Positions 88 through 15,600 of a stretch of DNA of 64,000 nt are shown piece by piece. The notes beneath the pieces are model-generated. The model saw only the letters and a list, made by a program, of their open reading frames with translations. It ran no database searches and was not told the origin of the DNA. The position numbers were made by a program, and so were the translations under genes. The DNA lies in the NCBI GenBank assembly GCA_019233975.1, contig JAFALY010000029.1:1-64000 (forward strand). The letters run 5' to 3'. The first letter of the stretch is position 1. Each line of letters begins with the position of its first letter. Source of the DNA: Alphaproteobacteria bacterium. GTDB lineage: Bacteria; Pseudomonadota; Alphaproteobacteria; UBA9219.

Positions 88-762
88 ATGACAATCGAAC
101 AGGAACTACACGCTTTACATAATAAAGCGTGGTGGGTGGGTTTTGCCCATTACCTGCGTAAAGGCTGTGTACTGCCGGTGGTGGCAGAGGTGATGGTGGC
201 GACAAAATCACTGGAAGCTTTCAAACAGCATGTGATGGCGGGTGCCAAATATAGCCCCGATCAGCCGCGCGTCCCGGCTGGCAATCCAGACGGTGGCCAG
301 TGGACGAATGGTGGCGGGGAGGGAATTGATGATCTGCCGATAGTGCCTGTATATCCGTTGGAGACGGCGCTTAGTTTCCTGTTCGGCGGGCAGGCGCTTG
401 TCAATGCTGGTCGTGTGCTGGGTGCAGGCTTAGCGGCGACTGCCGATGCGGCAGAAACGGTGGCACTTGAAAATCGCTGGCAAAGACTGTTGTTCGAAGA
501 TGGTGACCTGATCGGCGAGGCGGGATCGAGGAGCTCCATTCGTGAATTATCGGGTGGGCAGGAAGCGGCCGAAGATCTGTTCCAGCAGCTGACAAAAGGT
601 GGTGCAGATGTGACGCCACCCGATTATAAAGGCACATCATATTCGATGGGGGATGGCAGTCGGATTGGTTATAGACCTGTCAGTGAAAGCGGAGAACCAA
701 CCATTGATATCAATATACCATCAATAGGCAATATCTTGAAGAAACTCAAATTTCTGGAGTGA
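88..762 (+). CDS. Standalone polymorphic-toxin-like protein with PRVPAGNPDGGQWT linker
   Basis: A 224-residue protein in three parts. Residues 1-50 form an N-terminal segment of unknown role. Residues 54-73 carry the linker KYSPDQPRVPAGNPDGGQWT, followed by a Gly stretch and an IDDLPIVPVYPLET segment. Residues about 155-224 form a compact C-terminal domain with the pattern DLF-QLTKGG, YKGT, DG-RIGYRP-SESG and PTIDINIP, ending KKLKF. From memory, this last pattern resembles C-terminal toxin domains of Rhs/CDI-type polymorphic toxins; no search was run. The same linker plus VYP-ET segment occurs in the C-terminal extension of the portal protein (3242), so the two proteins share a delivery or pre-toxin module. 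The gene sits just before an immunity-like gene (3-nt gap) and ahead of the terminase. Activity is not predicted. Confidence 0.7.
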   Translation: MTIEQELHALHNKAWWVGFAHYLRKGCVLPVVAEVMVATKSLEAFKQHVMAGAKYSPDQPRVPAGNPDGGQWTNGGGEGIDDLPIVPVYPLETALSFLFGGQALVNAGRVLGAGLAATADAAETVALENRWQRLLFEDGDLIGEAGSRSSIRELSGGQEAAEDLFQQLTKGGADVTPPDYKGTSYSMGDGSRIGYRPVSESGEPTIDINIPSIGNILKKLKFLE

Positions 763-765
763 GCG

Positions 766-1146
766 ATGAAAAAACCAGATGACCAGTTTCCTGGAATCTT
801 GCACGCCTTTTATTTGGAAGGTGCGAGTGATGATATTTATTTAGCAGAGATTCTGTGGGACATAAGCGATGCCATGGGATTTGATCGACAGAAAATAGCT
901 TCTAATCAGACCAAAGAACTGTGGGAAGCAGTCGAACGCTTTATGCCGCTGATGCTGTCGCAATTTTGGGCGGTTGATCTCTCAGTAGAGAATAAAAAAC
1001 TGTTCGCGACCCCTTGGCCGAACCAAACGCCAGAAGCTGTTCTGGCACGCATCAAGGAAAAATGGATAGCCTATAATGGAAAAGAGCCCGACGTGTGGTA
1101 TCTCGTCTGGTTTCGACGTAAGGACAAAGTCATTAAGACGCAGTAG
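766..1146 (+). CDS. Probable immunity protein for the upstream toxin
   Basis: A 126-residue soluble, Trp-rich protein with no signal peptide or membrane segment. I do not recognise its family. It starts 3 nt after the toxin-like gene's stop and so is probably translationally coupled to it. Size, position and lack of phage-structural character fit the cognate immunity protein of a toxin/immunity pair. Its stop is immediately followed by the small pre-terminase gene. The immunity assignment is an inference from context only. Confidence 0.55.
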   Translation: MKKPDDQFPGILHAFYLEGASDDIYLAEILWDISDAMGFDRQKIASNQTKELWEAVERFMPLMLSQFWAVDLSVENKKLFATPWPNQTPEAVLARIKEKWIAYNGKEPDVWYLVWFRRKDKVIKTQ

Positions 1147-1184: not shown

Positions 1185-1487
1185 ATGACCCTTTTGCCCG
1201 ATGCCGAAGAAGTGCTGGCGACGTTGCTGGCGCTGATGCAGGACAGCGAAAGCGACAGCGTACGCATTGCAGCGGCCAAAGTTTTGCTGGAGCGTCTGTC
1301 GCCGAAAGAAGATGATGAAATCCGACAACGCGAAGCCGAAGAAAGGCAGGCGGCGATTGGTGAAGCCCGCTGTCTGCTGGCCGAACTTGCCGTTGCCCGA
1401 ACTCATGAGCTTTACAGCGCGCCTGCGATGGATGGCGACGGCGCGGCCGGAGCAATTGACGCCGCCGCACGGGGCGCGGGGGATTGA
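1185..1487 (+). CDS. Small pre-terminase protein, possible terminase small-subunit analogue
   Basis: A roughly 100-residue protein with a helical centre (pattern DSVRIAAAKVLLERL) and a charged Glu/Arg segment. It lies directly before, and overlaps by about 80 nt, the start of the large terminase. GTA-like clusters often have a short helical gene at this place, which acts as terminase small subunit or is of unknown role. The ATG at 1185 is preferred; an in-frame GTG at 1146 would add 13 residues. The C-terminal Ala/Gly-rich end lies in the overlap with terL and may be under little constraint. Confidence 0.5.
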   Translation: MTLLPDAEEVLATLLALMQDSESDSVRIAAAKVLLERLSPKEDDEIRQREAEERQAAIGEARCLLAELAVARTHELYSAPAMDGDGAAGAIDAAARGAGD

Positions 1488-2646
1488 CTGGCGCGTCTGG
1501 CTGATTTTGGCCGGACGTGGTTGGGGAAAAACCCGTACAGGCGCGGAAGATATGGCGCACTACGCCCTGTGGCATCCCGGCGCGCGGCTGGGCGTTATCG
1601 CCCCCACTTATGCGGATGCCCGCGATATTTGCGTGGAGGGGGAAAGCGGTTTGCTGCGCGCCTTGCCCCGACAGGCGGTACGCAAATGGAACCGCAGCAT
1701 GGGCGAGCTGGTTTTGGTGAATGACACGCGCATCAAGCTTTTTTCGGCGGACCAGCCCGAACGTTTGCGCGGGCCGCAACATCATCGTGTCTGGTGTGAT
1801 GAGTTGGGGGCCTGGTCATCGCGCGACGCGTTCGACCAACTGTGGTTTGGCTTGCGGTTGGGGACCGACCCGCGCGTAATTGTAACGACGACGCCAAGGA
1901 ATACGGATGTGATACAGGAACTTTTCCGCCGCCAAAGCCGTGATGTTCTGCTGACGCGTGGCCGCACAACAGACAATGCCGCGCATTTATCGCCACGCGT
2001 CCTGGAACAGTTACAGGACCGCTATGCCGGCACGCGCCTTGGCCGCCAGGAACTGGATGCCGAATTGCTGCAGGATACAGAGGGCGCGCTCTGGACCCGC
2101 GCGCTGTTGGACGGCTGCCGCGTCATGGAACCGTTCGATCTTGCACGGATGAAACGGATTGTGGTTGCCATCGATCCCGCATTGTCCAGCGGGCAAAGCG
2201 CGGACGAAACGGGCATTGTCGCCGCTGCACGCGGGCATGATGGTTTGTTTTATGTGCTGGCTGACCATTCGGGTCGCTATACGCCCGATGGCTGGGCGCG
2301 CCGTGCCATCGACCTGCTGCGTGACTTGCATGCGCACCAAATTGTGGCCGAAGTTAACGCAGGCGGTGATTTGGTTGAACGTGTGTTGCGACAGGCAGCA
2401 CCCACACTACCCTTCAAACCGGTTCGTGCCCTGCGCGGCAAAACCGAACGCGCGATGCCTGTTGCGGCGCTGTATGAACAAGGGCGCGTGCGTCACGCAG
2501 GTGTCTTTGCGCTTCTGGAAGACCAGATGTGCCGCTTTACGGAGGCAGGCATGCCATCATCGCCGGACCGTGTCGATGCGCTTGTTTGGGCGCTGACGGA
2601 ACTTGATGAACGTCAGAGCGGCGAGCCGCGGATTCATTTGTTGTGA
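1405..2646 (+). CDS. Phage/GTA large terminase (TerL)
   Basis: DNA-packaging motor ATPase and nuclease, about 413 residues, equivalent to g2 of RcGTA. It shows the Walker A motif GRGWGKT after the WLILAGRG strand, a Walker B-like VWCDELG, the coupling segment TTTPRN, and nuclease acidic motifs (VAIDPALS, then ETGIV; DRVDALVWAL near the C-terminus). The frame is open upstream to 1267, but that part reads as the shadow of the preceding gene; family members begin shortly before the R-x-x-Q-x-P segment, which favours the ATG at 1405 (or 1432). It is followed by degenerate DNA before the portal gene instead of by the portal gene directly. Confidence 0.93.
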   Translation: MSFTARLRWMATARPEQLTPPHGARGIDWRVWLILAGRGWGKTRTGAEDMAHYALWHPGARLGVIAPTYADARDICVEGESGLLRALPRQAVRKWNRSMGELVLVNDTRIKLFSADQPERLRGPQHHRVWCDELGAWSSRDAFDQLWFGLRLGTDPRVIVTTTPRNTDVIQELFRRQSRDVLLTRGRTTDNAAHLSPRVLEQLQDRYAGTRLGRQELDAELLQDTEGALWTRALLDGCRVMEPFDLARMKRIVVAIDPALSSGQSADETGIVAAARGHDGLFYVLADHSGRYTPDGWARRAIDLLRDLHAHQIVAEVNAGGDLVERVLRQAAPTLPFKPVRALRGKTERAMPVAALYEQGRVRHAGVFALLEDQMCRFTEAGMPSSPDRVDALVWALTELDERQSGEPRIHLL

Positions 2647-2704
2647 GGAAGGCCGTTTTATGCTGTAGGTGGTGGTGACGCTGGAAGAGGATTGGGAATT
2701 TATC

Positions 2705-3123
2705 TTGATTTTTACGGTCGAAAATAAAAGGTATCTACGGAAATGTGCCGTTGCTATCGTGCTGTTCCACTTACTCTCTGGTCGTGCCCATGCAGAAGAA
2801 GCTGGTGGCACTTGTACGCATGACAGTCGCGTCGTTGAGCCTTGCTACGATGTTCATGGTCATTTAGGTTTATCGCGGATATGCATGCTTACATAGGCGC
2901 ACCTAAAACTAAGCGCATACTCAATATTGCTTTTATATCAGATTCCAATACACATTATTTTTGGCCGCCGTCTGTTGAAAAGATGCTGACAGAAGATAAT
3001 GACATATGGGGCGATTATCGGGTCTGCCCGTTTACGCCGCAGAAACCGAAAGTTATGCAGACGGTTTGTATTGACTCTGTCTCGCGCATGCATGTTGTGC
3101 AAAAAAAGAATGTGCAACAATGA
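2705..3123 (+). pseudogene. Frameshifted gene for a small secreted Cys-containing protein
   Basis: Two overlapping frames together read as one exported protein of about 139 residues. The first has a short basic N-terminus, a hydrophobic stretch ending SGRAHAEEA (signal peptide) and CTHDSRVVEPCYDVHG. After about base 2875 the sense continues in another frame: ADMHAYIGAPKTKRIL, WPPSVEKML, IWGDYRVCPFTP, MQTVCIDS. One missing base in TATCGCGGAT explains the switch. The start is uncertain: TTG at 2705 or GTG at 2669. The family was not identified. It is AT-richer than the phage genes and sits between terL and the portal gene as accessory cargo. Confidence 0.6.
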
Positions 3124-3147
3124 TCTGCTGAAACGGCAGTAAAAAAC

Positions 3148-3189
3148 ATGACAATCGAACCAGAAATGCGCGCCCTGTATCATCAGTGA
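3148..3189 (+). pseudogene. Remnant of the N-terminus of a second standalone toxin gene
   Basis: Thirteen codons (MTIEPEMRALYHQ, then stop) closely match the start of the gene at 88 (MTIEQELHALHNK). This is the only part of that gene remaining here, about 50 bp before the portal start. I read it as the scar of a deleted toxin cassette. Confidence 0.55.
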
Positions 3190-3241: not shown

Positions 3242-4960
3242 ATGAGATGGAGCAATCTCGTGGCGCCTTTGCGTCGCCGCGCACAAAGCAACGTGGCCAC
3301 GACACCGGCACCACAGCAGGTGAAAACCAGCGCTGCCGGTCCGGTGATCGCGTGGAGCGGGGTTGGGCAACCACGCTGGACGCCGCGGCGTTATGACACG
3401 CTTGCTGACGAAGGGTTCAAGAAAAACGTCATCGCCTATCGCTGTGTCATGCAGATTGCCAATGCTTCGGCGGCGGTGCCGTGGTTGCTGTACGACGAAG
3501 GCGGGCAGGAACTGGACCAACATCCTTTGCTCAATCTCCTACAGCATCCAAACCCCTTGCAGGACGGCGTCAGCTTTATGGAAAGCGTGTATGCCAATCT
3601 GCAAATTTCCGGCAACGCGTATATCGAAGCCGTAATGCCACGCGACGATGAACGGCCTGTTGAATTGTATGTTCTGCGACCTGATCGCATGAAGGTTGTG
3701 CCGGGGCCGACAGGCTTGCCACAGGGGTATCAGTATAATGTAAATGGCAAGCTGACCAGTTGGCGCGCCGACCCTATTACGGGCGCCAGCCCCATTTTGC
3801 ACTTAAAAACATTTCATCCGCTGGATGACTGGTATGGTCTTGCGCCAATGGAGGCGGCCTTGTTGTCTATCGACCAGCATAACGCGGCAGGGTCTTGGAA
3901 CCAGGCGCTGCTTAATCAGGGCGCGCGCCCCTCCGGCGCCTTGGTCTATGCGCCGAAGGATGGCAGCCCGACGCTGACTGACGAGCAACTGCTGCGCCTG
4001 CGCGAAGAAATGGGACAGCTATATCAGGGTGACCGCAATGCCGGACGTCCCTTAATCCTCGAAGGTGGTCTGGAATGGCGGGAGATGAGCCTGTCGCCCA
4101 AGGATATGGACTGGTTGTCCGGGCGCAACAACGCGGCGCGTGACATCGCGCTGGCTTTCGGCATACCGGCGCAGATGGTCGGCATCGCCGACAGCCAGAC
4201 TTACGCCAACATGGCGGAGGCGCGCATGGCTTTTTACGAAGAAACGATTATCCCGCTTGTGACGCGCGTCATCGCCGGGTTCGACCATTGGCTGACGCCC
4301 ATGTATGGACGCAACCTGCAACTTGATTTCGATATGGATGACATCAGTGCGCTCACGCCACGTCGCGATGCGCTGTGGAACAAGGCGCAGGCCGCAGGTT
4401 TCCTGACACGCAACGAAAAACGCGCCGTCGCCGGTTACGGCCCCGTGCCTGGCGGCGATGCCGAAGATGAAGGCAGCGACAGCGATGACCCCGACCCGGC
4501 CATTGTTGATGCGGATGATGATACGCTCACATTCTCGCCGGATTTTCTGAAATGCGGCGCGCCGAAATACAGCCCGGACCAGCCGCGTGTGCCGGCGGGT
4601 AACTCAGACGGTGGTCAGTGGACGAGTGGTGGCGGGGATGGTGGGCAAGACAGCGCAGTAACAGAAAAACCGGCACAGGCTACAGGTGACAACCCAGCTG
4701 CTTCGCCGGATCATTCGGACAGCGGACAGGAAGTCAATACAGGTCATGGGAATACCATCGACGATCCGCCGATAGAGCCTGTGTATCCGATAGAAACCAT
4801 TCTCTCGGCTTTAACAGCTGGTTCGGCACTAAAGGCAGCTATTAGTGTTGTGAGAGGACTGGTTTGTCAGGAGACTGGAGACTGGAGACGCAATTTCAAA
4901 GGCCGCCAAGGCCATAGAAGATTATCTGGGAGGACGACCAGATCGTGCTTTCTTCAATAA
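3242..4960 (+). CDS. HK97-type portal protein with C-terminal toxin-linker extension, frame broken near the end
   Basis: Residues 1 to about 400 are a HK97/GTA g3-type portal: NVIAYRCVMQIA, HPLLNLLQHPNP, SGNAYIE, PDRMKV, HLKTFHPLDDWYGL, LEGGLEW, GIPAQMVGI and DSQTYANMAEARMAFYEETI. A normal portal would end soon after the VAGYG-VPGGD segment. Here an acidic linker leads to KYSPDQPRVPAGNSDGGQWT (residues 442-461), a Gly/Asp-rich stretch, and IDDPPIEPVYPIET, as in the gene at 88. A 7-bp tandem duplication at 4871-4889 then throws the frame off, and the last residues (from about WRRNFKGRQG on) are frameshift product. Without it the protein would be 624 residues, ending in the toxin-like domain at 4893-5123. 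Portal C-termini of this fold face the capsid interior, so a fused toxin could be packaged; that is inference. Confidence 0.9.
   Translation: MRWSNLVAPLRRRAQSNVATTPAPQQVKTSAAGPVIAWSGVGQPRWTPRRYDTLADEGFKKNVIAYRCVMQIANASAAVPWLLYDEGGQELDQHPLLNLLQHPNPLQDGVSFMESVYANLQISGNAYIEAVMPRDDERPVELYVLRPDRMKVVPGPTGLPQGYQYNVNGKLTSWRADPITGASPILHLKTFHPLDDWYGLAPMEAALLSIDQHNAAGSWNQALLNQGARPSGALVYAPKDGSPTLTDEQLLRLREEMGQLYQGDRNAGRPLILEGGLEWREMSLSPKDMDWLSGRNNAARDIALAFGIPAQMVGIADSQTYANMAEARMAFYEETIIPLVTRVIAGFDHWLTPMYGRNLQLDFDMDDISALTPRRDALWNKAQAAGFLTRNEKRAVAGYGPVPGGDAEDEGSDSDDPDPAIVDADDDTLTFSPDFLKCGAPKYSPDQPRVPAGNSDGGQWTSGGGDGGQDSAVTEKPAQATGDNPAASPDHSDSGQEVNTGHGNTIDDPPIEPVYPIETILSALTAGSALKAAISVVRGLVCQETGDWRRNFKGRQGHRRLSGRTTRSCFLQ
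4871..4889 (+). repeat. 7-bp tandem repeat GAGACTG (2.7 units) causing the frameshift
   Basis: GAGACTG GAGACTG GAGAC. Removing one 7-bp unit joins the portal frame (residues QETGD) to the downstream toxin-like frame (AISKAAKAIED) with no other change. This is the hallmark of a slippage duplication. It may be a fixed inactivation or a reversible on/off switch. Confidence 0.85.
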
Positions 4961-5337: not shown

Positions 5338-5379
5338 AATAATCCGGAGTCTATGGCCAACATAGACCTGTCAGCAGCA

Positions 5380-5428
5380 GAAATGGGACAGCTATATCAG
5401 GGTGACCGCAATGCCGGATGCCCCTTAA
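5380..5428 (+). repeat. Displaced duplicate of an internal portal segment
   Basis: This stretch repeats portal positions 4007-4055: the first 39 bases are identical and the rest differ by 3 bases. It is in frame within a 44-codon open frame (5354-5488) reading EMGQLYQGDRNAG as in the portal. No function is likely. The near-identity shows a recent local duplication or recombination between portal copies, between the two immunity-like genes. Confidence 0.85.
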
Positions 5429-5461
5429 ACCATCTCATTTGTTTCCAAAGGAGATTACGTG

Positions 5462-5788
5462 ATGAAAGACAGAAAGTTGGAGGTTGAAGATATCACCGTT
5501 ACGGGATTTAATTTTTCGAATACACAACTTATTGTAGATTATTCGCGATACGAAGAAGACATAGATACGGATCATGTCGGGCACATTGTTTTCACAGGTG
5601 TGAAAGATTTTACCATCGATGATTCGCCTGCCAACAAAGCCGATATGTTTTATAATGACGGCGAGATTATTCACTTTGAATTGGATGACGACAAGGCACT
5701 TGTCATCATTCAATGGAATGATTTCCCCAAACCTGCGCGCAAAATGTTGGCCTACACATTTGAGTTTCTGACGATGCAAGCCAGTTAG
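5462..5788 (+). CDS. Second, orphan immunity-like protein
   Basis: A 108-residue acidic soluble protein with beta-strand-like patterns (VEDITVTGFNF, HIVFTGVKDF, FELDDDKALVIIQWNDF). I do not recognise the family. ATG at 5462 follows AAAGGAG with good spacing; an adjacent GTG at 5459 is less likely. It lies downstream of a duplicated portal fragment and upstream of another. This is the position expected for the immunity gene of an older, displaced toxin cassette, as seen in arrays of orphan cassettes behind Rhs or cdiA genes. No toxin partner is visible next to it. Confidence 0.5.
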   Translation: MKDRKLEVEDITVTGFNFSNTQLIVDYSRYEEDIDTDHVGHIVFTGVKDFTIDDSPANKADMFYNDGEIIHFELDDDKALVIIQWNDFPKPARKMLAYTFEFLTMQAS

Positions 5789-5918
5789 TAAAGGAGAGGA
5801 CCACCTCACACCTCACCCGAAGATAGGCATCTACACGAGGTTATCTGATGTCCAAGAGATACTGAAATTTAGTCCTGAATATTCGCTGCGATGAGAATTT
5901 GAGCTTTAATTGGTAGGT

Positions 5919-6029
5919 GCGGATGATGATACGCCCACATTCCCGCCGGATTTTCTGAAATACGGCGCGCCGAAATACAGCCCCGACCAACAACACGTTC
6001 CGGCTGGGAACCCACCTGATGGTCGGTAA
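5919..6029 (+). repeat. Degenerate displaced copy of the portal C-terminal linker
   Basis: The stretch encodes ADDDTPTFPPDFLKYGAPKY followed by a corrupted linker (SPDQQHVPAGNPPDGR, stop), matching portal codons from 4511 onward (ADDDTLTFSPDFLKCGAPKY and SPDQPRVPAGN). It has an in-frame stop upstream and one at 6027-6029. It marks the former end of a portal gene or an earlier cassette boundary. The rest of the 340-bp gap 5789-6128 holds no other gene I can support, only the leader of the protease gene with a weak GCCCC/GGGGC hairpin at 6086-6105. Confidence 0.85.
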
Positions 6030-6128: not shown

Positions 6129-6695
6129 ATGGATATCAAGCACTTTGCCTGCGCGATGCAGGTCAAGGCGCTGGATGGCGACGGCGTTTTTGCCGGCTAT
6201 GCCAGCGTCTTCGGCGAACTGGACAAACAAAACGAAATTGTCGCCCCAGGCGCGTTTACGCGAACGCTCCGTCAATGGCGGCAACAGGGACGCGCGCCCG
6301 CCATGTTGTGGATGCACGACCCGACGCAGCCCATCGGGCTTTGGTTGTCGCTGAACGAAGATAATAACGGTCTGGCGGTGCAGGGACGGCTGGCGCTGCG
6401 CACGCAAAAAGGTGGTGATGCGTACGAACTGTTAAAGCTCGGCGCGCTCACGGGCCTGTCGATCGGTTACCGCGTGATTACCAGCCGTGTCGATGCGGAA
6501 CGTAAGGCGCGCGTTTTAACGGACGTCGACTTGTTCGAAATCTCGCTTGTTACCTTTCCGGCGAACGAGGCTGCGCGTGTCGGCACTGTCAAATCACCGG
6601 AGCCGAAGCACCGGCGCAGCGTAACCGAAGACAGGCAACAACTGCGCGAAGCGGCCCAGCGGTTGAAACGTGCCGCCCGTAAACTGGTCGAATAA
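6129..6695 (+). CDS. HK97-family prohead protease
   Basis: A 188-residue serine protease of the S78 (HK97/GTA g4) family that cleaves the capsid protein N-terminal domain during head maturation. Features: FAGYASVFGELDKQNEIVAPGAF near the N-terminus in parts, the His motif MLWMHDPTQPIG, the Ser motif GLSIGYRV, and VDLFEISLVTFPAN. The C-terminal tail is basic and probably helical. It has the usual length and lies directly before the capsid gene, though the toxin-cassette debris separates it from the portal gene. Confidence 0.93.
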   Translation: MDIKHFACAMQVKALDGDGVFAGYASVFGELDKQNEIVAPGAFTRTLRQWRQQGRAPAMLWMHDPTQPIGLWLSLNEDNNGLAVQGRLALRTQKGGDAYELLKLGALTGLSIGYRVITSRVDAERKARVLTDVDLFEISLVTFPANEAARVGTVKSPEPKHRRSVTEDRQQLREAAQRLKRAARKLVE

Positions 6696-6736: not shown

Positions 6737-7966
6737 ATGATCGAAGTCAGTGAAGTACGCTCCGCCTCGGAAACGTTGGCGCGGGCCTTTGAAGAATATA
6801 AATCCGTCAATGACCGTCGTTTGGAAGAAATCGAACGACGCGGCTCAGCCGACGTGCTGCTGTCGGAAAAATTGTCGCGCATGGACAACAGCATCAACAA
6901 TATGCAGGACGACATTACAAACGTAAAGGCCGCCATGCGTCGCCCCGGTAAAGCCTTGCTGGGTGAGATGAGGGGCGAAGGTAACAGCGCGTACAAGCAA
7001 GCTTTTTTGAACTACATCGCCAAGGGCAATGAGGTTGACCTGTCATCGCTGCAGACCAAAGCGCTGGAAGTCATCAATAACGGCGAGGGCGGGTTTATGG
7101 TGCCGCCCGAGATGTCCGACCGTATCGTGACGCGTCAGTTTGACACCACACCCATGCGCCAGTTGGCAACCGTCATGACCATTTCATCGGATGCGGTTGA
7201 AATGCTCCGTGACACCAATGAGCCTTCGGCCAGCTGGATATCGGAGCTTGGCGTGCCGTCCGATACGAATGACGGCGGGATCGGCCGCATCCGCATCCCG
7301 GTGCATGAATTGTATGCGCAGCCGAAGGCAACGCAGAAACTGCTGGATGATGCTGTGTTGAATGTCGAGGAATGGCTGATCAACAAGGTTGCAGCAAAAT
7401 TCTCGCGTGCGGAGAACAACGCCTTTGTGGTGGGTGACGGGATCGGCATGCCGCGTGGGTTCACCAGCTATACGGCGCAGGCGGTCAGCGATAGCACCCG
7501 TTCATGGGGCGTGTTGCAATATGTGCCGACCGGCGTCAACGGTGCCTTTGCGACCAGTAGCCCGGCGGATGTCTTGTTTGATCTGGTCTACCAATTGCGT
7601 GTCGGCTACCATCCAAAGGCGTCGTTTATCATGCCGCGTGCGGTTTCCGATATGATCCGCAAATTCAAGGAAAACACGACGCAGGCCTATATCTGGCAGC
7701 CGGGCTTGCAGCAAGGGCAACCGTCCACGCTGCTGGGCTTCCCGGTTTATCTGGGCGAAGACATGCCCCCGGTTGCGACTGGCAGCTATTCACTCGCCTT
7801 CGGCAACTTTGAAGAAGGCTACACGATTGTTGACCGCACCGGCATGCAGATCTTGCGTGACCCCTATACCGGCGCGCCGTTCATCAAGTTCCGCTGCACC
7901 AAGCGCACCGGCGGCGATGTCGTGAATTTCGAAGCGATTAAGCTTTTGAAATTCTCGGCTTCCTAA
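6737..7966 (+). CDS. HK97-fold major capsid protein
   Basis: A 409-residue capsid protein (GTA g5 type). Residues 1 to about 85 form a charged coiled coil, the delta-like scaffold domain normally removed by the prohead protease; the mature shell domain begins around the NYIAKGNEVDLSSLQTKAL segment. Conserved capsid features follow: GGFMVPPEM, TPMRQLATV, IRIPVHELYAQPKATQKLLDD, FVVGDGIGMPRGF, and at the C-terminus DPYTGAPFIKFRCTKRTGGDVV. An AAGGAG ribosome-binding site precedes the ATG. A strong terminator follows 17 nt downstream of the stop. Confidence 0.95.
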   Translation: MIEVSEVRSASETLARAFEEYKSVNDRRLEEIERRGSADVLLSEKLSRMDNSINNMQDDITNVKAAMRRPGKALLGEMRGEGNSAYKQAFLNYIAKGNEVDLSSLQTKALEVINNGEGGFMVPPEMSDRIVTRQFDTTPMRQLATVMTISSDAVEMLRDTNEPSASWISELGVPSDTNDGGIGRIRIPVHELYAQPKATQKLLDDAVLNVEEWLINKVAAKFSRAENNAFVVGDGIGMPRGFTSYTAQAVSDSTRSWGVLQYVPTGVNGAFATSSPADVLFDLVYQLRVGYHPKASFIMPRAVSDMIRKFKENTTQAYIWQPGLQQGQPSTLLGFPVYLGEDMPPVATGSYSLAFGNFEEGYTIVDRTGMQILRDPYTGAPFIKFRCTKRTGGDVVNFEAIKLLKFSAS

Positions 7967-7982
7967 ACGTTCTTTCACCCGC

Positions 7983-8014
7983 AACGGCGCCTGATCATCA
8001 GGCGCCGTTTTTTA
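7983..8014 (+). terminator. Strong terminator after the capsid gene
   Basis: A 12-bp stem AACGGCGCCTGA/TCAGGCGCCGTT with a 3-nt loop is followed by six T. It ends with the same TTTTTTATTGCC tail as the terminators at 40 and 9921. Confidence 0.9.
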
Positions 8015-8041
8015 TTGCCCATTTTCTGACAGGAGTACTCC

Positions 8042-8440
8042 ATGACAACCCGCGACTTGCTTCGCATTACCTATATTACAAACAGCCTGCCGCCCGCAAA
8101 CCGCGTCAACGGCACGGTAACCGGCAACGCCGTAGATCTTTTGGGCTATGACGGCGCCGTTATCGTCGTGACCACCGGCGCTTACACCGACGGCACGCAT
8201 GTTCCGTCCGTTCTGCAATCCATGGACGGCGTTACCTATACCGCCTGTGCCGTGACGGATCTGGACGGCACCTTCGCCACTATCGCCAGCAGTGCAAGCG
8301 CCAACACAGTGCAGCAGGTCGGTTATATCGGTACGCAACGTTATTTACAGGTCGTCATGACGACGACGGGTGCAACCAGTGGTGCCACAACATCGGCCCA
8401 TATCGTTGCCGGCTATCCACGCAACGCGCCGACACAATAA
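8042..8440 (+). CDS. Capsid-adjacent phage structural protein, possible head decoration
   Basis: A 132-residue protein, Thr/Gly/Val-rich and all-beta by pattern: VDLLGYDGAVIVVTTGAYTD, VGYIGTQRYLQVV. Proteins with a GYDGA - TDGTH - GYIGTQRY layout occur between the capsid and head-tail connector genes of alphaproteobacterial prophages; no function is established that I can name. It lies between two strong terminators, so it is either transcribed by read-through or has its own promoter. A decoration or fibre role is a guess from composition and place. Confidence 0.65.
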   Translation: MTTRDLLRITYITNSLPPANRVNGTVTGNAVDLLGYDGAVIVVTTGAYTDGTHVPSVLQSMDGVTYTACAVTDLDGTFATIASSASANTVQQVGYIGTQRYLQVVMTTTGATSGATTSAHIVAGYPRNAPTQ

Positions 8441-8453
8441 GCAGCCACCTGCC

Positions 8454-8484
8454 AGATGCGGCCCGTTGTGGCCGCATCTTTTTC
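8454..8484 (+). terminator. Terminator between structural genes
   Basis: A perfect 10-bp stem AGATGCGGCC/GGCCGCATCT with a 6-nt loop is followed by TTTTTCTTC. It lies just before the head-tail adaptor gene. Confidence 0.88.
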
Positions 8485-8511
8485 TTCAAAATGTTTTGCA
8501 AAGGGTCGTTT

Positions 8512-9186
8512 ATGACAGCCTTTAATCTGGTCACACCGCCCGCGGTTGAGCCCGTCTTGCTGATGGATGCCAAGCAACAAGCGCGCATTGACACAACTGC
8601 CGATGACGCGCTTGTGACGTCGCTTATCACCGCTGCGCGGCAATGGGTTGAAAACTATATAGGCCGCGCGCTCATCACGCAGACATGGCAGATGACGTTC
8701 GACACCTGGCCGGTTGCTTCGCTGCCCTTCTGGGATGGCGAACGTGAAGGGCCCGTGACGGCGTTTCAAAATCCGGGCTATGTGCTGTTGCCCCGCCCGC
8801 CGTTGCTTGCAGTCAACAGCATCACTTATTATGACAACAGCGATAACGCGACTGTTTGGGACCCCAGTAATTATTTTGTGGATACCGTGCATGCGCCGGG
8901 ACGCGTTTGTTTGCGCCTAGGTGCTGTCTGGCCGGTGCCAATGCGCCTGACTAATGGTATTGTCATACAATATACCGCAGGTTACGGCTCGGACGGCACC
9001 TATGTGCCAGAGGCGATCAAGGCCGCCATTCGCCAGATTGTCACGCACTGGTACGAACATCGCGGCGAAGCGGCAACAAACACATCACGCGGCAGCATGG
9101 CGCCGGGCTCGGCGGGCGGGTTTAATGTGCCACTCATCATCTATGGGTTATTGATGCCGTACCGCGTTGCCTCATTGGGTGCCTGA
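8512..9186 (+). CDS. Head-tail connector / adaptor protein
   Basis: A 224-residue protein of the phage phiE125 gp8-like head-tail connector group (GTA g6 adaptor). The N-terminus (LVTPPAVEPVLLMDAKQQARID, in two parts) leads to the helical DDALVTSLITAARQWVENYIGRAL motif, then a TWQMTFDTWP strand, and a C-terminal beta part. The ATG at 8512 is chosen: the frame is open to 8491, but MTAFNLVTPP is the family start. It binds the portal and forms the upper neck ring. Its stop is followed after one base by the stopper gene. Confidence 0.85.
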   Translation: MTAFNLVTPPAVEPVLLMDAKQQARIDTTADDALVTSLITAARQWVENYIGRALITQTWQMTFDTWPVASLPFWDGEREGPVTAFQNPGYVLLPRPPLLAVNSITYYDNSDNATVWDPSNYFVDTVHAPGRVCLRLGAVWPVPMRLTNGIVIQYTAGYGSDGTYVPEAIKAAIRQIVTHWYEHRGEAATNTSRGSMAPGSAGGFNVPLIIYGLLMPYRVASLGA

Positions 9187-9187
9187 T

Positions 9188-9511
9188 ATGTCAATCGGTA
9201 CACTCCGTAAACGGGTCAGTTTTCAATCCGAACAAATGACTGCCGATGGCGCGGGCGGCTATGTCCTGTCATGGGTAACGGTCATGACCGTGTGGGCAGA
9301 GATTGAGCCCCTGCAGGGCAGCAAGCGTTACGTCGATGGCCATCTGGAGGCTGAGGCGACGCATAAAATAACCGCGCGCTATCAATCCGGTCTGACGACC
9401 GATATGCGTATCACCTATAGCGGCCGTACATTTAAAATCCTATCGCTTCTAAACAAAGGCGAACGAAATCAGTGGCTTGATGTAATGGTGAGGGAAGGTG
9501 GGGCAGCGTAA
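9188..9511 (+). CDS. Head-closure (stopper) protein
   Basis: A 107-residue SPP1 gp16/GTA g7-type head-tail joining protein: MSIGTLRKRVSFQSEQ, GGYVLSWVTVMTVWAEIEPL, THKITARYQ, MRITYSGRTFKILSL and a final WLDVMVREG. The layout of an LR-RV-F start, W-AEI-P and YGRTFKI is characteristic of the family. The ATG at 9188 lies directly after the adaptor stop (TGATATG), so the two are probably co-translated. Confidence 0.88.
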   Translation: MSIGTLRKRVSFQSEQMTADGAGGYVLSWVTVMTVWAEIEPLQGSKRYVDGHLEAEATHKITARYQSGLTTDMRITYSGRTFKILSLLNKGERNQWLDVMVREGGAA

Positions 9512-9596
9512 ACAAGATGTAATTAATTGATTTTCAATCTAATAAATCCAAACTGACACCAAGCATATTGCATACCCTATAACACAAGGAGAAAAA

Positions 9597-9902
9597 ATGC
9601 CCCTTCCTCCAAAACAAGATCCCAACGTTGTCGATGGCTGGCACATAGAAAAAGCAAAACAGCGTCCAGGTGGTGGGGGGGCCACATACATTGAACTTAA
9701 AGCTACCAAGCATACATCACATGGTGATGTAACTGTTCAAGAAACACTTGATGATTTCGGCAATGAGCTGGGCAAGGATAAATGGGGTATGTTTGATGAT
9801 CAGGTGACCAACGCGCAGGGTAAGGTTATTATAGATCCTAAGGCAGAGAAGGAAGCAGGCAATGCGGTATTAAAAAAACTTGGACGCAAACCGACTCTAT
9901 AA
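9597..9902 (+). CDS. Unknown AT-richer accessory (moron-like) protein
   Basis: A 101-residue soluble, Lys/Gly-rich protein (DGWHIEKAKQRPGGGGATYI; LKATKHTSHGDVTVQETL). I do not recognise it. It interrupts the normally tight stopper to tail-terminator order. It is preceded by about 85 bp of AT-rich DNA with a good AAGGAG ribosome-binding site and followed by a strong terminator, the usual shape of a phage moron. Its codon use is more AT-rich than that of its neighbours, suggesting late acquisition. It carries no linker motif of the toxin genes. Confidence 0.6.
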   Translation: MPLPPKQDPNVVDGWHIEKAKQRPGGGGATYIELKATKHTSHGDVTVQETLDDFGNELGKDKWGMFDDQVTNAQGKVIIDPKAEKEAGNAVLKKLGRKPTL

Positions 9903-9920
9903 AAACCATAGCCACCTTAC

Positions 9921-9946
9921 AACCCCGCTTCGGCGGGGTTTTTTAT
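9921..9946 (+). terminator. UUCG-loop terminator after the moron-like gene
   Basis: AACCCCGC/GCGGGGTT stem closed by a stable TTCG tetraloop, then TTTTTT. It shares the TTTTTTATTGCC tail with the terminators at 40 and 7983. Confidence 0.92.
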
Positions 9947-9967
9947 TGCCTAAAATCAGGAAGAGAC

Positions 9968-10378
9968 ATGACCGATATTTTTTTCACATTACAGCAAAGT
10001 TTGTATAACGCGCTGGCAGCAAGTGCGGAGATAACGGCAATGCTCGGCAGCCCACCGCGCCTTTACGACCATGTGCCGCCGGGTGCCGTGTTCCCTTACG
10101 CCGTGTTTGGGGCGACGCATATAACGCCCTACGACAATCGTACCGATACGGGTTTTGATCATCTGCTGACTATTGATATCTGGTCCCGTTATCGGGGCAG
10201 CAAGGAAGCAAAAGATATAGTAACGGCGCTTTACGACACACTGCACCGCGCCAGTTTACCTCTGGCAGGACAGACGGCGTTGCTGTGCGAATGTCACAGC
10301 GCAGAAGTGGCCTTGGAAAATGACGGGTTTACAACGCATGCCGCCGTTCGGTTCAACATTCTGACGCAGGATGATTAG
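9968..10378 (+). CDS. DUF3168 tail terminator protein
   Basis: A 136-residue protein of the DUF3168 family (GTA g8, tail terminator). Features: LQQSLYNALAASAEITAMLG, PPRLYDHVPPGAVFPYAVFG, the TDTGFDHLLTIDIWSRYRGS core and a C-terminal HAAVRFNILTQ strand. It normally caps the tail tube at the neck. Here it is followed by a short unknown gene and then distal-tail genes, without the tube and tape-measure genes that should lie between. Confidence 0.88.
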   Translation: MTDIFFTLQQSLYNALAASAEITAMLGSPPRLYDHVPPGAVFPYAVFGATHITPYDNRTDTGFDHLLTIDIWSRYRGSKEAKDIVTALYDTLHRASLPLAGQTALLCECHSAEVALENDGFTTHAAVRFNILTQDD

Positions 10379-10380
10379 TC

Positions 10381-10728
10381 ATGGCCTACAAAACACTTCA
10401 CGCAAAAAGAAAATCGCCGCTTGCGGCGCTGCAGGATGCACGCATGGCAACGCAACTGATACGCGACCGTGCCGCTTTGGCTGAACAGATCACCGGCTTA
10501 CGGCAACATCTGGCCGCCCATGCGCCGCGCGGCAGCACGCGTTATATCAAAACGGCGCGCAGTAACCCCTCGCTTTTCGTAAAGGCTGGTGAGGGTGCCG
10601 TGGGCCGGTTTATCGGTCGCGGATTGTTAGGCGAGGCGGGTCTGACATCCGGTGGATTTTACGCCAGCACATCCATGATCGCGCAAAATTTTTCGGCGTT
10701 GCTGGGCCTCGCCGCTCGCGACAACTAA
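10381..10728 (+). CDS. Unknown small protein at the tail-tube/tape-measure position
   Basis: A 115-residue basic protein: helical N-terminal half (ALQDARMATQLIRDRAALAEQI) and a Gly/Ala/Phe-rich C-terminal half (GRFIGRGLLGEAGLTSGGFY). I do not recognise the family. It occupies the place of tail tube, g10 and tape-measure genes and is far too short for a normal tape measure (RcGTA g11 is around 200 residues). It might be a reduced tape-measure relic or a tail chaperone. The start lies 2 nt after the DUF3168 stop, so it is part of the same operon. Confidence 0.6.
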   Translation: MAYKTLHAKRKSPLAALQDARMATQLIRDRAALAEQITGLRQHLAAHAPRGSTRYIKTARSNPSLFVKAGEGAVGRFIGRGLLGEAGLTSGGFYASTSMIAQNFSALLGLAARDN

Positions 10729-10741
10729 CAGGAAATACAAC

Positions 10742-11368
10742 ATGTCATTTGACGAAGTGGTTTTGCCGTTGCGTGTCGGTTATGGCACGTCCGGTGGCCC
10801 GTCCTTTTCGACCGAGATTGTCACCATCGACAACGGCTATGAAAGGCGTAACCAGAACTGGACGCAGGCGCGGCGCGTTTTTGACGCCAGTACGGGCGTG
10901 CGATCATCCGTGGATGCGGCGGCCTTGCTGGCCTTCTTTCATGCGCGCGCCGGACGTGCGCGCGGCTTCCGGCTGCATGACTGGAGCGATGGCACCAGTG
11001 CCGCCGATGGTGTTTCAGTGCCGACAGCAGGCGATCAGACCATTGGTGCGGGCGACGGCGCCACCACGCAATTTCAACTGGTGAAAATTTACGGCAGCGG
11101 TGGCGTTGTCCATACGCGCACAATTAGTAAACCTGTTGCCGGCTCTGTTGTCGTGGCGTTGAACGGCGTGACGCAAACCAGCGGTTGGAGCGTTAATACG
11201 ACGACCGGCCTCATCACCTTTGCGACACCACCCGGCGGCGGCGTTGTGATAACGGCGGGCTACAGTTTTGATGTGCCCGTACGCTTTGACGCTGACCAAC
11301 TGACGCTCACCGTCGAAAATTACAGCCAATATAAAGCTGACATATCCATCATCGAAATACGCATCTAA
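10742..11368 (+). CDS. DUF2460 distal tail protein
   Basis: A 208-residue protein of the DUF2460/TIGR02217 family (GTA g12, distal tail protein). Diagnostic parts: the N-terminal FDEVVLPLRVGYGTSGGPSF, then RNQNWTQARRVFDASTGVRS, FFHARAGRARGFRLHDWSD and the C-terminal VPVRFDADQLTLTVENYSQY. Family length is normal. It begins the baseplate block g12-g13-g14-g15, which is complete and in canonical order. Confidence 0.95.
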   Translation: MSFDEVVLPLRVGYGTSGGPSFSTEIVTIDNGYERRNQNWTQARRVFDASTGVRSSVDAAALLAFFHARAGRARGFRLHDWSDGTSAADGVSVPTAGDQTIGAGDGATTQFQLVKIYGSGGVVHTRTISKPVAGSVVVALNGVTQTSGWSVNTTTGLITFATPPGGGVVITAGYSFDVPVRFDADQLTLTVENYSQYKADISIIEIRI

Positions 11369-11378
11369 GAAATCACCC

Positions 11379-12221
11379 ATGAAAAACATAACCCCGACGT
11401 TGGCCGCGCATCTGACCAGCGAATGCACAACCCTGGCCTGGCTTATCAAATTGACGCGGCGCGACGGCACCGTTATCGGTTTCACAACATGTGATAAACC
11501 GTTGACGGTTGCGGGCGTCACCTATCAGGCCGATGGCGCCATAACAGCCAGCGCGATGACTAGCAGCGACAAACTTGCGACCGACAATCTTGAAATTAAC
11601 GGCATCCTGTCTGATGCGGGGCTGGATGATGCGGATATCGAAGCCGGTCTTTATGACCATGCGCGTGTCGATGTTTATGTCTGCAACTGGGCTGATCTGA
11701 CGCAGGGTGTCGTGCAGATGCGGCGCGGCTGGCTGGGGCAAATCGTGCGGTCCGGCGTTCAATATGTGGCCGAATTGCGCGGCCTGCATGACAATCTGCA
11801 ACGCGTCATCGGTGATTACTACACGGCTGAGTGCCGGCATGATTTGGGTGACAGCGGCTGCGGCGTCGTCCTTGCCACGCAAACCGTGACGGGCAGCGTA
11901 ACATTGGTCGCCGACAACGCAACCTTTGGCGATACAACACGGACCGAGGGGGAGGGCGTTTTCAACTATGGCAAACTGATATTCACCAGTGGTGCCAATC
12001 AGGGGTTGAGTATGGAGGTTAAGGGCTGGACGGCCCTAACCCAGACTTTCGTTTTGTGGCTGCCCATGCCCAACCCCATACAGGTTGGCGATACTTACAG
12101 CGTTTATTCGGGCTGCGATAAAAGGCTCAGCACCTGCCGCGACAAATTTTCGAATGTGGTGAATTTTAGCGGTTTTCCCTACCTGCCCGGCGTGGGTAAC
12201 ATTTTAAAATACCCGACATAA
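11379..12221 (+). CDS. DUF2163 tail hub protein
   Basis: A 280-residue DUF2163/TIGR02218 protein (GTA g13, baseplate hub; phage BR0599 family). Visible marks are LTSECTTLAWLIKLTRRDGT, the VTYQADGAITASAM segment, the Cys-containing CRHDLGDSGCGV motif, and the C-terminal GCDKRLSTCRDKFSNVVNF-GFPYLPG. The paired cysteines of the family are kept. It lies 10 nt after the distal tail gene and 4 nt before the peptidase gene. Confidence 0.95.
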   Translation: MKNITPTLAAHLTSECTTLAWLIKLTRRDGTVIGFTTCDKPLTVAGVTYQADGAITASAMTSSDKLATDNLEINGILSDAGLDDADIEAGLYDHARVDVYVCNWADLTQGVVQMRRGWLGQIVRSGVQYVAELRGLHDNLQRVIGDYYTAECRHDLGDSGCGVVLATQTVTGSVTLVADNATFGDTTRTEGEGVFNYGKLIFTSGANQGLSMEVKGWTALTQTFVLWLPMPNPIQVGDTYSVYSGCDKRLSTCRDKFSNVVNFSGFPYLPGVGNILKYPT

Positions 12222-12225
12222 AAAT

Positions 12226-12645
12226 ATGGCACACAAAACGGACATTATGATCGCGGCCGCACGCGGATGCATCGGCACGCCTTTTCATCATCAGGGGCGA
12301 CAGGCGCAGGTGGGGCTGGATTGTATCGGCCTTGTCGTCGTCGCGTTGCGCGCTGCAGGCATTGCCGTTCAGGACAGGCAGGATTATGGCCGCAGGCCGG
12401 ACGGGCAAGCGCTGGAACGGGCATTACTGCAACATGGCGCAGTACGTGTGGATACTATTACAGCAGGTTGCGTTTTGTTGTTTCGCTATGACCGGCAACC
12501 GCAACATGTGGCGCTGGCGACCAGCGACGCGACTATGATCCACAGCTTTGCGCCTGCAAGCGAAGTGGTTGAAACCTGCATCGGTCCCTATTGGCAACGC
12601 AGGCTACTTGGAATCTACGCTTTCCCCCCATTGAACAGGGAATAA
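12226..12645 (+). CDS. NlpC/P60 tail-associated peptidase
   Basis: A 139-residue GTA g14-type NlpC/P60 cysteine peptidase, thought to open the peptidoglycan of the recipient from the tail tip. The catalytic Cys lies in GLDCIGLVVVALRAAGI and the His in PQHVALATSDATMIHSF. The N-terminus RGCIGTPFHHQGRQAQ is the family's usual substrate-side loop. It sits between the hub and the megatron-like gene. Confidence 0.93.
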   Translation: MAHKTDIMIAAARGCIGTPFHHQGRQAQVGLDCIGLVVVALRAAGIAVQDRQDYGRRPDGQALERALLQHGAVRVDTITAGCVLLFRYDRQPQHVALATSDATMIHSFAPASEVVETCIGPYWQRRLLGIYAFPPLNRE

Positions 12646-12646
12646 A

Positions 12647-15600
12647 ATGGCCTCCATCGTTTTACAGACAGTTGGCGCCGGTGTCGGCAATGCGTTGGTG
12701 CCTGGCCTTGGCTCGACATTTTTCGGCGCGCTTGGCCGCGCGGCGGGCGGGTTGATTGATAACGGCCTTGGGATCGGGACACAGGTAACGGGGCCACGTC
12801 TTGCCAGCCTGACGGTTCAGGACTCGCGCTATGGCGCAGGCATTCCCCGTGTGTATGGGCAGGCGCGTGTTGCGGGCAATGTCATCTGGGCCAGTGACCT
12901 GATGCAGGCTACGCATCAAAGCGGCCTCAGCGGCGGCAAGGGCGGCCTCAGCGGCAGCGGAGCCAGCGCAACCATTTATACCTATAGCGTACATTGCGCG
13001 GTTGGCATTGCGGCGGGACCGATTGGCGGCATTACAACCATCTGGGCCGACAGTACGGTTATCTATCAAAACGGTGTCTGGACATCCGGCCTGATAGACA
13101 GCGCCACTCTTTACACGGGCACGACAACGCAAGCGCCAGACAGTTTTATGCAATCCATGCTGGGCAGTGCCAATGTTCCCGCTTATCGCGGCATGGCCTA
13201 TATCGTTCTTGAAAACCTGCAGTTGGCGAATTTCGGCAATCGTTTGCCGAACCTGACCTTTGAAATTGCCGCGCCGCAGAGCAGTACAACAAATCTGTCA
13301 CTTCTTGGCAGCAGCTTTGTGCCTTTCGGCCAACCCGTGCAAACCACCAACTATGCCGGTATGCAACCCATCGCGTTGGCGGGCAGTGCCCGTGCCGTCA
13401 GCACGGTTTTGGTTGGCGGGTATAATCCTATGCCGCCCAGCACCAATATCGAATTGATCGTCAGCGCCTATGACGTGACGGGTGATGCACCGGCGCTTCT
13501 GGAAACGCATCAGTGCGTTATCCCTACAACGCAGCCTTACGATGGTGATTGGGCCTTGTCCCCTGACGGACGCATGGTTGCCATTATGATGATGGACAGC
13601 CTGTCCACCAACGCCACCGTCACGCTGTATGACACCGAAGCGCGGCAGTTTGGCGCGACATTGTTCTTTCCTGCGTTGACCAGTCTGGCGGTCCGGCAAA
13701 TAGCGTGGCTTGATAACACGCATCTGGTGTTGCCGGATGTCAGCGGCGGTGTTTGGGGTGTTCATGTTTTGCAACGTGCGGGACTGGGGCTTATTCATCT
13801 GGGTTTTAACGGCGTATGGGGTGCCGGCTCCGCCACAACGCGCGCGCCCCTGTGCCGCGCGCAATTCACGCGCTTTGCGGGCGGGCTTTTGGCGTGCATG
13901 TCGGATTATGTGGGGCCTGGCGGTTTCACGGCCCTTTATGGCGTGACGCTGATGTGGCAGTACGGCGCACTGGTTGTTGGTACGCCCTATACAATTACAT
14001 CGGGCCTCAGCGGCATTACGGCAGGGGCCACGGCCTATCTGCTCAACACCGCCGCGGATGAATATACAATTTGCTACGGCAACATTTCCGGCTTTGGGCT
14101 TCTGTCCTTTGTACCGACGACAACCGGCGCCAGCTTGACGCGTCCCTGGCAGTGGATTGTGCCAGGCTTTGGCAACGCGGCAACGCAACTGCCCCTGTTT
14201 TATGGCGATCGCATCGTCATGGCGCAGGGCGACATGTCAGGCCTTTCATGTCATCTGACCGATGTCATGCTGACATCCGGCAGCTTCGCAATTGGCAGCT
14301 ATAACCTTGTGACAACAACCGGCACGAACGGCGTTTCAACGCAGGGCATTGCGTTGGATTACGGACGGTTCTTGCTGGCCCCCGTTCAAGCCACGGCCTC
14401 TGTGCCCAACATGTACATCTTGCCGCGCCAGGTGCTGGGGCAGGGGTTGGACGGCATTGTGGGCGATATATTGACGCGGGCGGGCTATGTCAGCGGTGAC
14501 TTTGACGTGACCGCTTTGTCCGGTTCGGATGTACAGGGTTATATCGTGGCAGAGCCTATGTCGGCCCGTGCCGCGATCGAACCGCTGCAGCTTTACGCAC
14601 CGTTCGACCTTGTGGAGACCAGCGGCCTTTTACGCGCCATTTTACGGCATGATACGGCAGATGTAGCCATTCCATCGGGTGAATGGCGTGCGACGGCAGA
14701 AAACAAACCGGCGCCGCCTGCGTTGCAGACCGTGCGCGCGCAGGAAAGCGAATTACCGCGCGTCATCAATCTGGATTACATCGACGCGTCACGCGACTAT
14801 GAAATTAACAGCCAGTCAGCGCGCCGCATTGTAACGCAATCACTGGCCGTGCAAAAAATCAATCTGCCTGTTGTGACGAACTCCGCCACGGCCAAACGTG
14901 TGGCGGAGGCACGGCTGTTTGCCTTGTGGGCAGAGCGCGATCTTGTGCGTCTCTCCATCAGTGGCGCATGGATGGCGTTGGATGTCGGCGATGTAGTCGA
15001 TTTGGGTAATGGCGCTTTGCTGCGCGTCTCGCGCATTCAACAGGCCGGGCATTTGCTAAGCATCGAAGGGTTTTACGTTTATGTTGATGCCTATGAAAGT
15101 GCGGCCGTTGCCGATACAGGTCTTGTGGCGCAAAGCCCTCCGTCGCTGGCCAATAGCGGCTGCAGCCTGACGATACTGGATATACCACTTTTGCGCGGCG
15201 CGGACAATCAGCCCGGTTATTACATTGCCGTATCGGCGCTCGATGGCTGGCGCGGCGGGCAGTTATGGCGCGCGGCTGATGGCGTGAATTACAGCGCGGT
15301 TGCAGATCTACCGCTGGCCGCCACGGCAGGTTTTGCGGTGACGGCCCTTGCAAACGGTTCATCCTATTATATGGACAATGTGAACAGCGTGACCGTGCAA
15401 GCGGCGTCAGGCAGCCTGTCCAGTTGCAGCCTGACGGATTTACTCAACGGCGCGAATGCCGCCCTTTTGGGACAAGAGATTATACAGTTCCAGACAGCCA
15501 CACTGACAGGGCCGGGGCTTTATGTGCTCGGCAACCTGTTGCGCGGCAGGCGCGGTACGGAGTTTGCCACGACTGTACATGTCGTTGGTGAAAATTTCAC

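Follow-up and report, generated by a model that had tools for sequence, protein, structure and literature searches.

A phage portal gene as the probable carrier of swappable toxin tips, with displaced portal ends and orphan immunity genes behind it, in an alphaproteobacterium

The 64,000-nucleotide stretch analysed here (the window; Alphaproteobacteria bacterium, assembly GCA_019233975.1, contig JAFALY010000029.1, positions 1 to 64,000 of the forward strand) contains a head-tail gene cluster homologous to that of the Rhodobacter capsulatus gene transfer agent (RcGTA). In this RcGTA-like, or prophage, head cluster, the portal gene very probably acts as the carrier of a polymorphic toxin system with displacement like that of Rhs loci and loci of contact-dependent growth inhibition (CDI). 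Judged from sequence, a portal with swappable toxin tips, and with discarded tips and antidote genes behind it, appears to be present in this bacterium as well as in many phages of Alphaproteobacteria, and the findings suggest that the phage-like particle itself may be a poisoned vehicle. The elements recognised are a complete portal with an arm, a fixed junction, a variety of tips with linked immunity-like genes, orphan genes, displaced portal ends, and tips shared between portal and stand-alone carriers (Table 1 for the window).

The core of the window portal (amino acids 12-403) aligned with residues 7-394 of the 396-residue RcGTA portal Rcc01684 (PDB 6tba) with an E value of 2e-105. Since the core spans almost the entire Rcc01684, everything past about residue 406 was regarded as an added arm, which is comprised of a linker, the conserved junction motif KYSPDQPRVPAGNSDGGQWT and a toxin-like tip, and is followed by an immunity-like gene. 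Stand-alone carriers elsewhere in Alphaproteobacteria likewise have toxin-like tips preceded by this motif, which therefore marks a tip junction, as DPxGL does in Rhs. Homologues of the window tip (tip B, encoded by toxB) were found as an in-frame portal fusion (IMG/VR contig L110), as a stand-alone toxin (L067) and as a remnant directly behind a portal (L046), and the putative immunity gene immB adjoins the 3' end of toxB in all three settings (window/L110, L046 and L067). The unit number of a 7-bp repeat in the arm differs between the window and contig L109, where the tip is out of frame, and L110, where it is in frame; either slippage switching or plain decay could account for the difference. 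Proven phase variation was rejected as a description of this repeat on the grounds that two allele classes only were found (window/L109 and L110).

An earlier note on this DNA had claimed that two pieces of the portal gene reappear in the same order around an orphan immunity-like gene, and had read the arrangement as repeated C-terminal replacement of the Rhs and CDI type. Both pieces were confirmed. Piece 1 (53 bp, with 40 identical bases followed by 3 mismatches) copies an internal portal segment, about amino acids 256-272, and piece 2 (115 bp) copies the linker and junction of the C-terminal arm; together they flank the open reading frame (ORF) immC in portal order. BLASTN against the surrounding ±5 kb gave E values of 2e-18 and 3e-29 for the two pieces, which excludes a chance origin of both. 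The upstream ORF toxA contains a third junction copy (247-323), which is 84% identical to portal positions 4565-4641. The same pieces are present in IMG/VR contig L109 (100% identical to the window over 12,417 bp, possibly from the same underlying data) and in L110 (99.8% identical), which is from another metagenome and differs by single-nucleotide polymorphisms and two indels; therefore, misassembly does not explain the pieces. An origin in one tandem duplication of the portal 3' region, with later indels and a small gene inserted by chance but no cassette exchange, would be consistent with the retained order, the similar spacing of the piece starts (499 vs 534 bp) and divergences of the two pieces that are not significantly different (Fisher p = 0.08). 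Such an event is nevertheless very improbable, since the gene between the pieces has homologues behind the portal-fused tip of locus L006 and in an array of L036, and as a general account it is refuted by the differing tip-immunity sets and the independent displaced portal ends of the relatives described below. Support for repeated C-terminal replacement comes from the loci of these relatives; the window on its own would look alike after two displacements in succession and after a single displaced tail that was later invaded or rearranged around immC.

Relatives of immC were found in two among 33 genomes of the order. In genome G022 (L006 3240-3569, reversed locus) the homologue overlaps the stop of a portal fused to tip C and is followed by two similar zinc-ribbon-like genes. 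In genome G013 (L036/L007) the homologue (L036 10159-10500) is an extra array gene behind the current portal-tip-immunity set and is followed by a relative of immA, the putative immunity gene of toxA. The window immC sits behind a portal fragment and is without a tip. Since the G022 homologue directly follows a different, portal-fused tip, the window gene is a true orphan, in agreement with the status that the note had assigned to it.

The comparison with related genomes that the note had proposed revealed differing tip and immunity sets in the portal-protease interval of L006, L036, L037, L046, L054, L111, L113 and L114. The relatives are metagenome-assembled genomes labelled Alphaproteobacteria, several of them Micavibrio. 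The portal-fused tips vary among Colicin_E5 (L054), Ntox37 (L111), toxA (L113) and tip C (L006). Tips were also found on more than one carrier: the toxA tip is stand-alone in the window and fused to the portal in L113 (46% identity), the E5 tip is stand-alone in L040 and portal-fused in L054, and the toxB tip is portal-fused in L110 and stand-alone in L067. The portal repeats expected to flank such sets were found as displaced portal 3' pieces behind the immunity gene in L054, L113 and L114. In L054/L053 the portal-Colicin_E5 fusion is followed by an immunity-like gene and then, 0.9 kb downstream, by a 31-bp exact copy of the portal end that runs into a short native-looking C-terminus (AAGYGHHGKGAGTRGDGFTDSVGQG in L054) and a stop. 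In L113 the portal-tip A fusion is directly followed by two immA-like ORFs (similarity judged by eye) and then by 265 bp of portal 3' end at 96.6% identity with its own stop, and in L114 the fusion is followed by an immunity-like gene and portal amino acids 345-370. Locus L046 contains two stand-alone toxins with N-terminal stretches that look nearly identical and tips that differ, and fragments read by eye as E5 toxin tails surround an orphan E5-type immunity gene. A 106-bp portal end lies behind a HicAB-like pair in L062, a locus that has no portal-fused tip and was counted only as a displaced portal end. As a control in the same loci, self-copies within ±5 kb were detected for 5/74 portals, 0/53 capsids, 0/58 proteases, 0/46 connectors and 1/39 terminases.

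Some further observations concern the same loci. HicB-like genes lie between portal and protease in L062 (3089-3629) and L056 (2585-3814), with a HicA-like gene also in L062. Stand-alone carriers with similar CHAP/amidase-like tips occur elsewhere in the cluster, including the connector/head-completion gap (L036 15103-15696 and L046 2090-2746). The more distant portals of L159, L160, L166, L168, L170, L173 and L175 have C-terminal extensions of 290-350 amino acids with Cys-rich ends that by eye resemble MuF fusions.

When viral contigs were scanned for the junction motif, 78 loci were recovered, and a second portal family emerged among these IMG/VR contigs, although the contigs may be redundant and the counts are approximate. 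At least 20 of the motif carriers were taken as portals from sequence. Phage_portal matches were obtained for nine of ten carriers tested, seven of them above the curated cut-off and two below it; the tenth (L219) is a short open frame on a contig that also has a longer portal match. The N-terminal parts of this family are 76-91% identical, and the C-terminal parts from the motif onward are mostly without detectable similarity. The domains recognised among the tips include CdiA-CT RNase A and lytic transglycosylase. Small ORFs follow the carriers by 5-43 bases in many cases, and like tips have like small ORFs behind them as judged by eye (L219/L287 and L244/L268/L292). Further portal copies were found within 5 kb in 13 of the 16 loci, N-terminally truncated with the 3' part covered and often ending in another motif and tip; in L287, for example, a copy of amino acids 95-598 is followed by copies of 305-595, 290-603 and 285-512. 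These truncated ends with their tips match the published orphan rhs modules, that is, displaced carrier fragments without a start (PMC3967940). In the terms of Zhang 2012, the loci combine a constant N-terminal carrier and interchangeable C-terminal toxin domains with a tip-matched immunity gene directly downstream, neutralisation by which is putative. Orphan arrays of the Rhs/CDI kind are present in the window, L054, L113, L114 and the second-family loci.

The tips could instead be effectors or cargo, serving against the host or its defences in the infected cell, or belonging to toxin-antitoxin or superinfection-exclusion modules for which the portal 3' end serves as the site of integration. 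This would agree with the HicAB-like pair between portal and displaced portal end in L062, and with published portal fusions to PBECR, 2H, InPase and Nudix domains, which are read as effectors of early takeover or counter-defence (PMC5512222, PMC9503650). The many polymorphic tips translationally fused to the portal behind one motif, the known interbacterial toxin domains among them (Colicin_E5, CdiA-CT RNase A and Ntox37) and the adjacent and orphan immunity-like genes argue otherwise, and the effector or cargo explanation is considered rather unlikely.

For the polymorphic toxin system, we infer exchange of cassettes by recombination, toxicity of the tips, location of the arm within the head, packaging, release, delivery and harm to non-immune recipients. 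Toxin-like tips are attached to the C-terminus of the complete portal via the conserved junction motif, each followed by a putative immunity gene. New tip-immunity cassettes would enter through recombination within the portal 3' end or junction, and the old portal end, tip and immunity gene would shift downstream and decay to portal fragments and orphan immunity genes, which, where retained, may protect against older tips. The same tips, also carried by small stand-alone carriers at neighbouring sites, could pass between carriers. In portals of this fold the C-terminus sits in the crown, and the arm is expected inside the head. For this reason the tips, up to 12 per particle, are predicted to be packaged with the DNA; they might then be released near the junction and delivered to recipients, of which those without the immunity gene would be harmed. 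That GTA-like or phage particles deliver up to a dozen portal tips with the DNA and spare only immune recipients, the locus evolving in the manner of Rhs with old immunity genes retained and with tips switched by recombination and possibly by 7-bp copy number, is put forward tentatively as a possible but doubtful proposal.

Several findings weigh against the portal as a toxin carrier. The tip fused to the window portal is frameshifted, and the internal origin of piece 1 means that the window holds no clean displaced 3' end in that piece. Among portals at ≥60% identity, 12 of 35 loci (window and L110 counted separately) have an arm of ≥45 amino acids, leaving about two thirds armless, and 8 of the 35 have the junction motif or a looser variant. 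The portal-end copies of L092, which is among the five loci with portal self-copies, may represent an interspersed repeat. To our knowledge portals are not normally ejected from heads, and therefore delivery would require a putative release step. No known fold was obtained for the window tips A, B and C, and the AlphaFold model of tip B (77 amino acids, predicted local distance difference test score 78) gave no confident PDB match. The window toxA, toxB, immA, immB and immC matched no Pfam or NCBIfam family above the curated cut-off, and most immunity genes overall matched no named family. Scans of viral contigs with immC and toxB returned only the siblings of the window, which share its tip, and no genome close to the window with another tip was found.

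The gene order from the protease to the Rcc01698-like megatron is of the RcGTA type, and the element is an RcGTA-like head-tail cluster for which a gene transfer agent (GTA) or a prophage would both fit. Linkage to addA was uninformative for this distinction since the genes are not linked elsewhere in the relatives. No major-tail or tape-measure gene was found between tail completion and DUF2460 in the family members including the window (9968-11368), although the other cluster genes are well conserved. A tape-measure query from a distant relative gave no match in eight genomes, in a search that had no positive control. GTA gp10-like and short tape-measure-like genes are located between portal and protease in L047 (6884-8032) and L055 (9254-10475), which indicates that this interval is a general insertion site. 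The missing tail genes, the frameshifted window tip and the broken genes at 2669-3189 raise the alternative of decaying phage debris, that is, random gene pieces in a dead and functionless element. This is improbable, because the sibling L110 retains an open tip, portal, protease and capsid are about 65-80% identical across family members that share the same short cluster, and the tips recur together with their neighbouring genes, as homologous pairs, in contigs that are unrelated.

The L036 homologue of immA lies inside the portal-protease array of that locus. The segment 2669-3189, in the terminase-portal gap, resembles a second small graveyard, in which a signal-peptide gene with a frameshift is followed by the 13 initial codons of a stand-alone toxin carrier; a weak homologue of the former (L046 4895-5425, E 0.016) also lies just before a stand-alone toxin carrier. 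The cluster downstream of the protease encodes capsid, connector, head completion, tail completion, DUF2460, hub protein, NlpC/P60 and Rcc01698-like megatron.

Table 1. Features of the window in the portal region and the adjoining head-tail cluster.
Positions	Strand	Feature	Evidence
88..762	+	toxA, stand-alone toxin-like protein: short N-terminal carrier domain, junction motif KYSPDQPRVPAGNPDGGQWT, C-terminal tip	junction DNA 84%
766..1146	+	immA, putative immunity gene of toxA	homologue L036 10497-10847, E 5e-17
1267..2646	+	large terminase ORF, true start maybe further in	Pfam Terminase_6N, Terminase_6C
2669..3123	+	decayed, frameshifted signal-peptide-like gene, probably old immunity gene	two overlapping frames
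3148..3189	+	truncated start of stand-alone toxin carrier (MTIEPEMRALYHQ, then stop)	81% to 88-113 over 26 bp
3242..4459	+	portal core, 406 aa	Pfam Phage_portal 4.8e-86; alignment to Rcc01684
4460..4960	+	portal ORF C-terminal arm: linker, junction motif (4565-4632), out-of-frame end	sequence
4870..4889	+	7-bp tandem repeat, extra unit shifts tip frame; L110 fusion open to 624 aa	contig comparison
4887..5123	+	tip B (toxB), out of frame with portal	homologues in L110, L067, L046
5128..5337	+	immB, putative immunity gene of tip B	3' of tip B in window/L110, L046, L067
5379..5431	+	displaced internal portal fragment (piece 1)	94% copy of 4006-4058
5459..5788	+	immC, orphan immunity-like gene, own tip gone	homologues in L006, L036
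5913..6027	+	displaced portal linker/junction copy (piece 2), ends in stop, tip lost	83% to 4505-4619
6129..6695	+	prohead protease, downstream border of variable region	Pfam Peptidase_S78 3.6e-35
6737..16078	+	remaining RcGTA-like head-tail cluster	Pfam, PHROG matches

The portal is a structural part of nearly every tailed phage, and the present loci would add it to the known polymorphic toxin carriers, complete with immunity genes, orphan arrays and a tip exchange resembling that of Rhs. The questions of whether virions or gene transfer agents themselves tell kin from non-kin recipients, and of how a toxin arm that is hypervariable can be accommodated on an essential 12-fold ring, are thereby made testable, and the junction motif offers a simple means of recovering many further toxins and immunity genes of this kind from phage data. 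Already known are MuF polymorphic toxins (PMC5576092, PMC3482391), portal-fused effectors (PMC5512222, PMC9503650) and orphan Rhs modules (PMC3967940). Among the papers searched for toxin-immunity systems carried by gene transfer agents or portals, none described one, nor was a report found of a portal as an Rhs-like carrier with tip exchange, immunity genes and orphan arrays, which is what appears new here.

The window portal is homologous to that of RcGTA (PMC7296036) over the full length of the latter, and the head-tail gene order and Rcc01698-like megatron are shared, whereas the RcGTA portal stops where the toxin arm of the window starts, and no major-tail or tape-measure genes occupy their usual place in the window cluster. 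The MuF toxins of temperate phages (Jamet 2017, PMC5576092; Zhang 2012, PMC3482391) likewise have polymorphic tips on a head protein of the portal/terminase module. In contrast, the carrier here is the portal itself, which gave no match to the MuF domain (PF04233/PF06152), and orphan arrays go unmentioned in the accessible part of Jamet 2017. Portal-fused effectors and polyvalent proteins (Iyer 2017, PMC5512222; PMC9503650) also place effector domains on portals, with predicted packaging and injection; as far as the accessible text of these sources goes, they differ in being assigned to host takeover or counter-defence and in having neither immunity genes nor exchanged tips nor displaced portal ends. 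The orphan rhs-CT/rhsI loci (Koskiniemi 2014, PMC3967940) share the conserved carrier, the variable C-terminal tip at a fixed motif with an adjacent immunity gene, and the old tips on displaced carrier fragments downstream with orphan immunity genes. They differ in that the Rhs carrier is a shell protein and the present one a virion portal, in the fixed motif (DPxGL in Rhs, QPRVPAGxPDGGQW here) and in secretion, no type VI secretion system or other secretion partner having been found at the portal locus. The window carrier matched only Phage_portal above the curated cut-off, with no match to Rhs/YD or CdiA filamentous haemagglutinin repeats. The portal carrier would work like Rhs, yet it is no Rhs protein.
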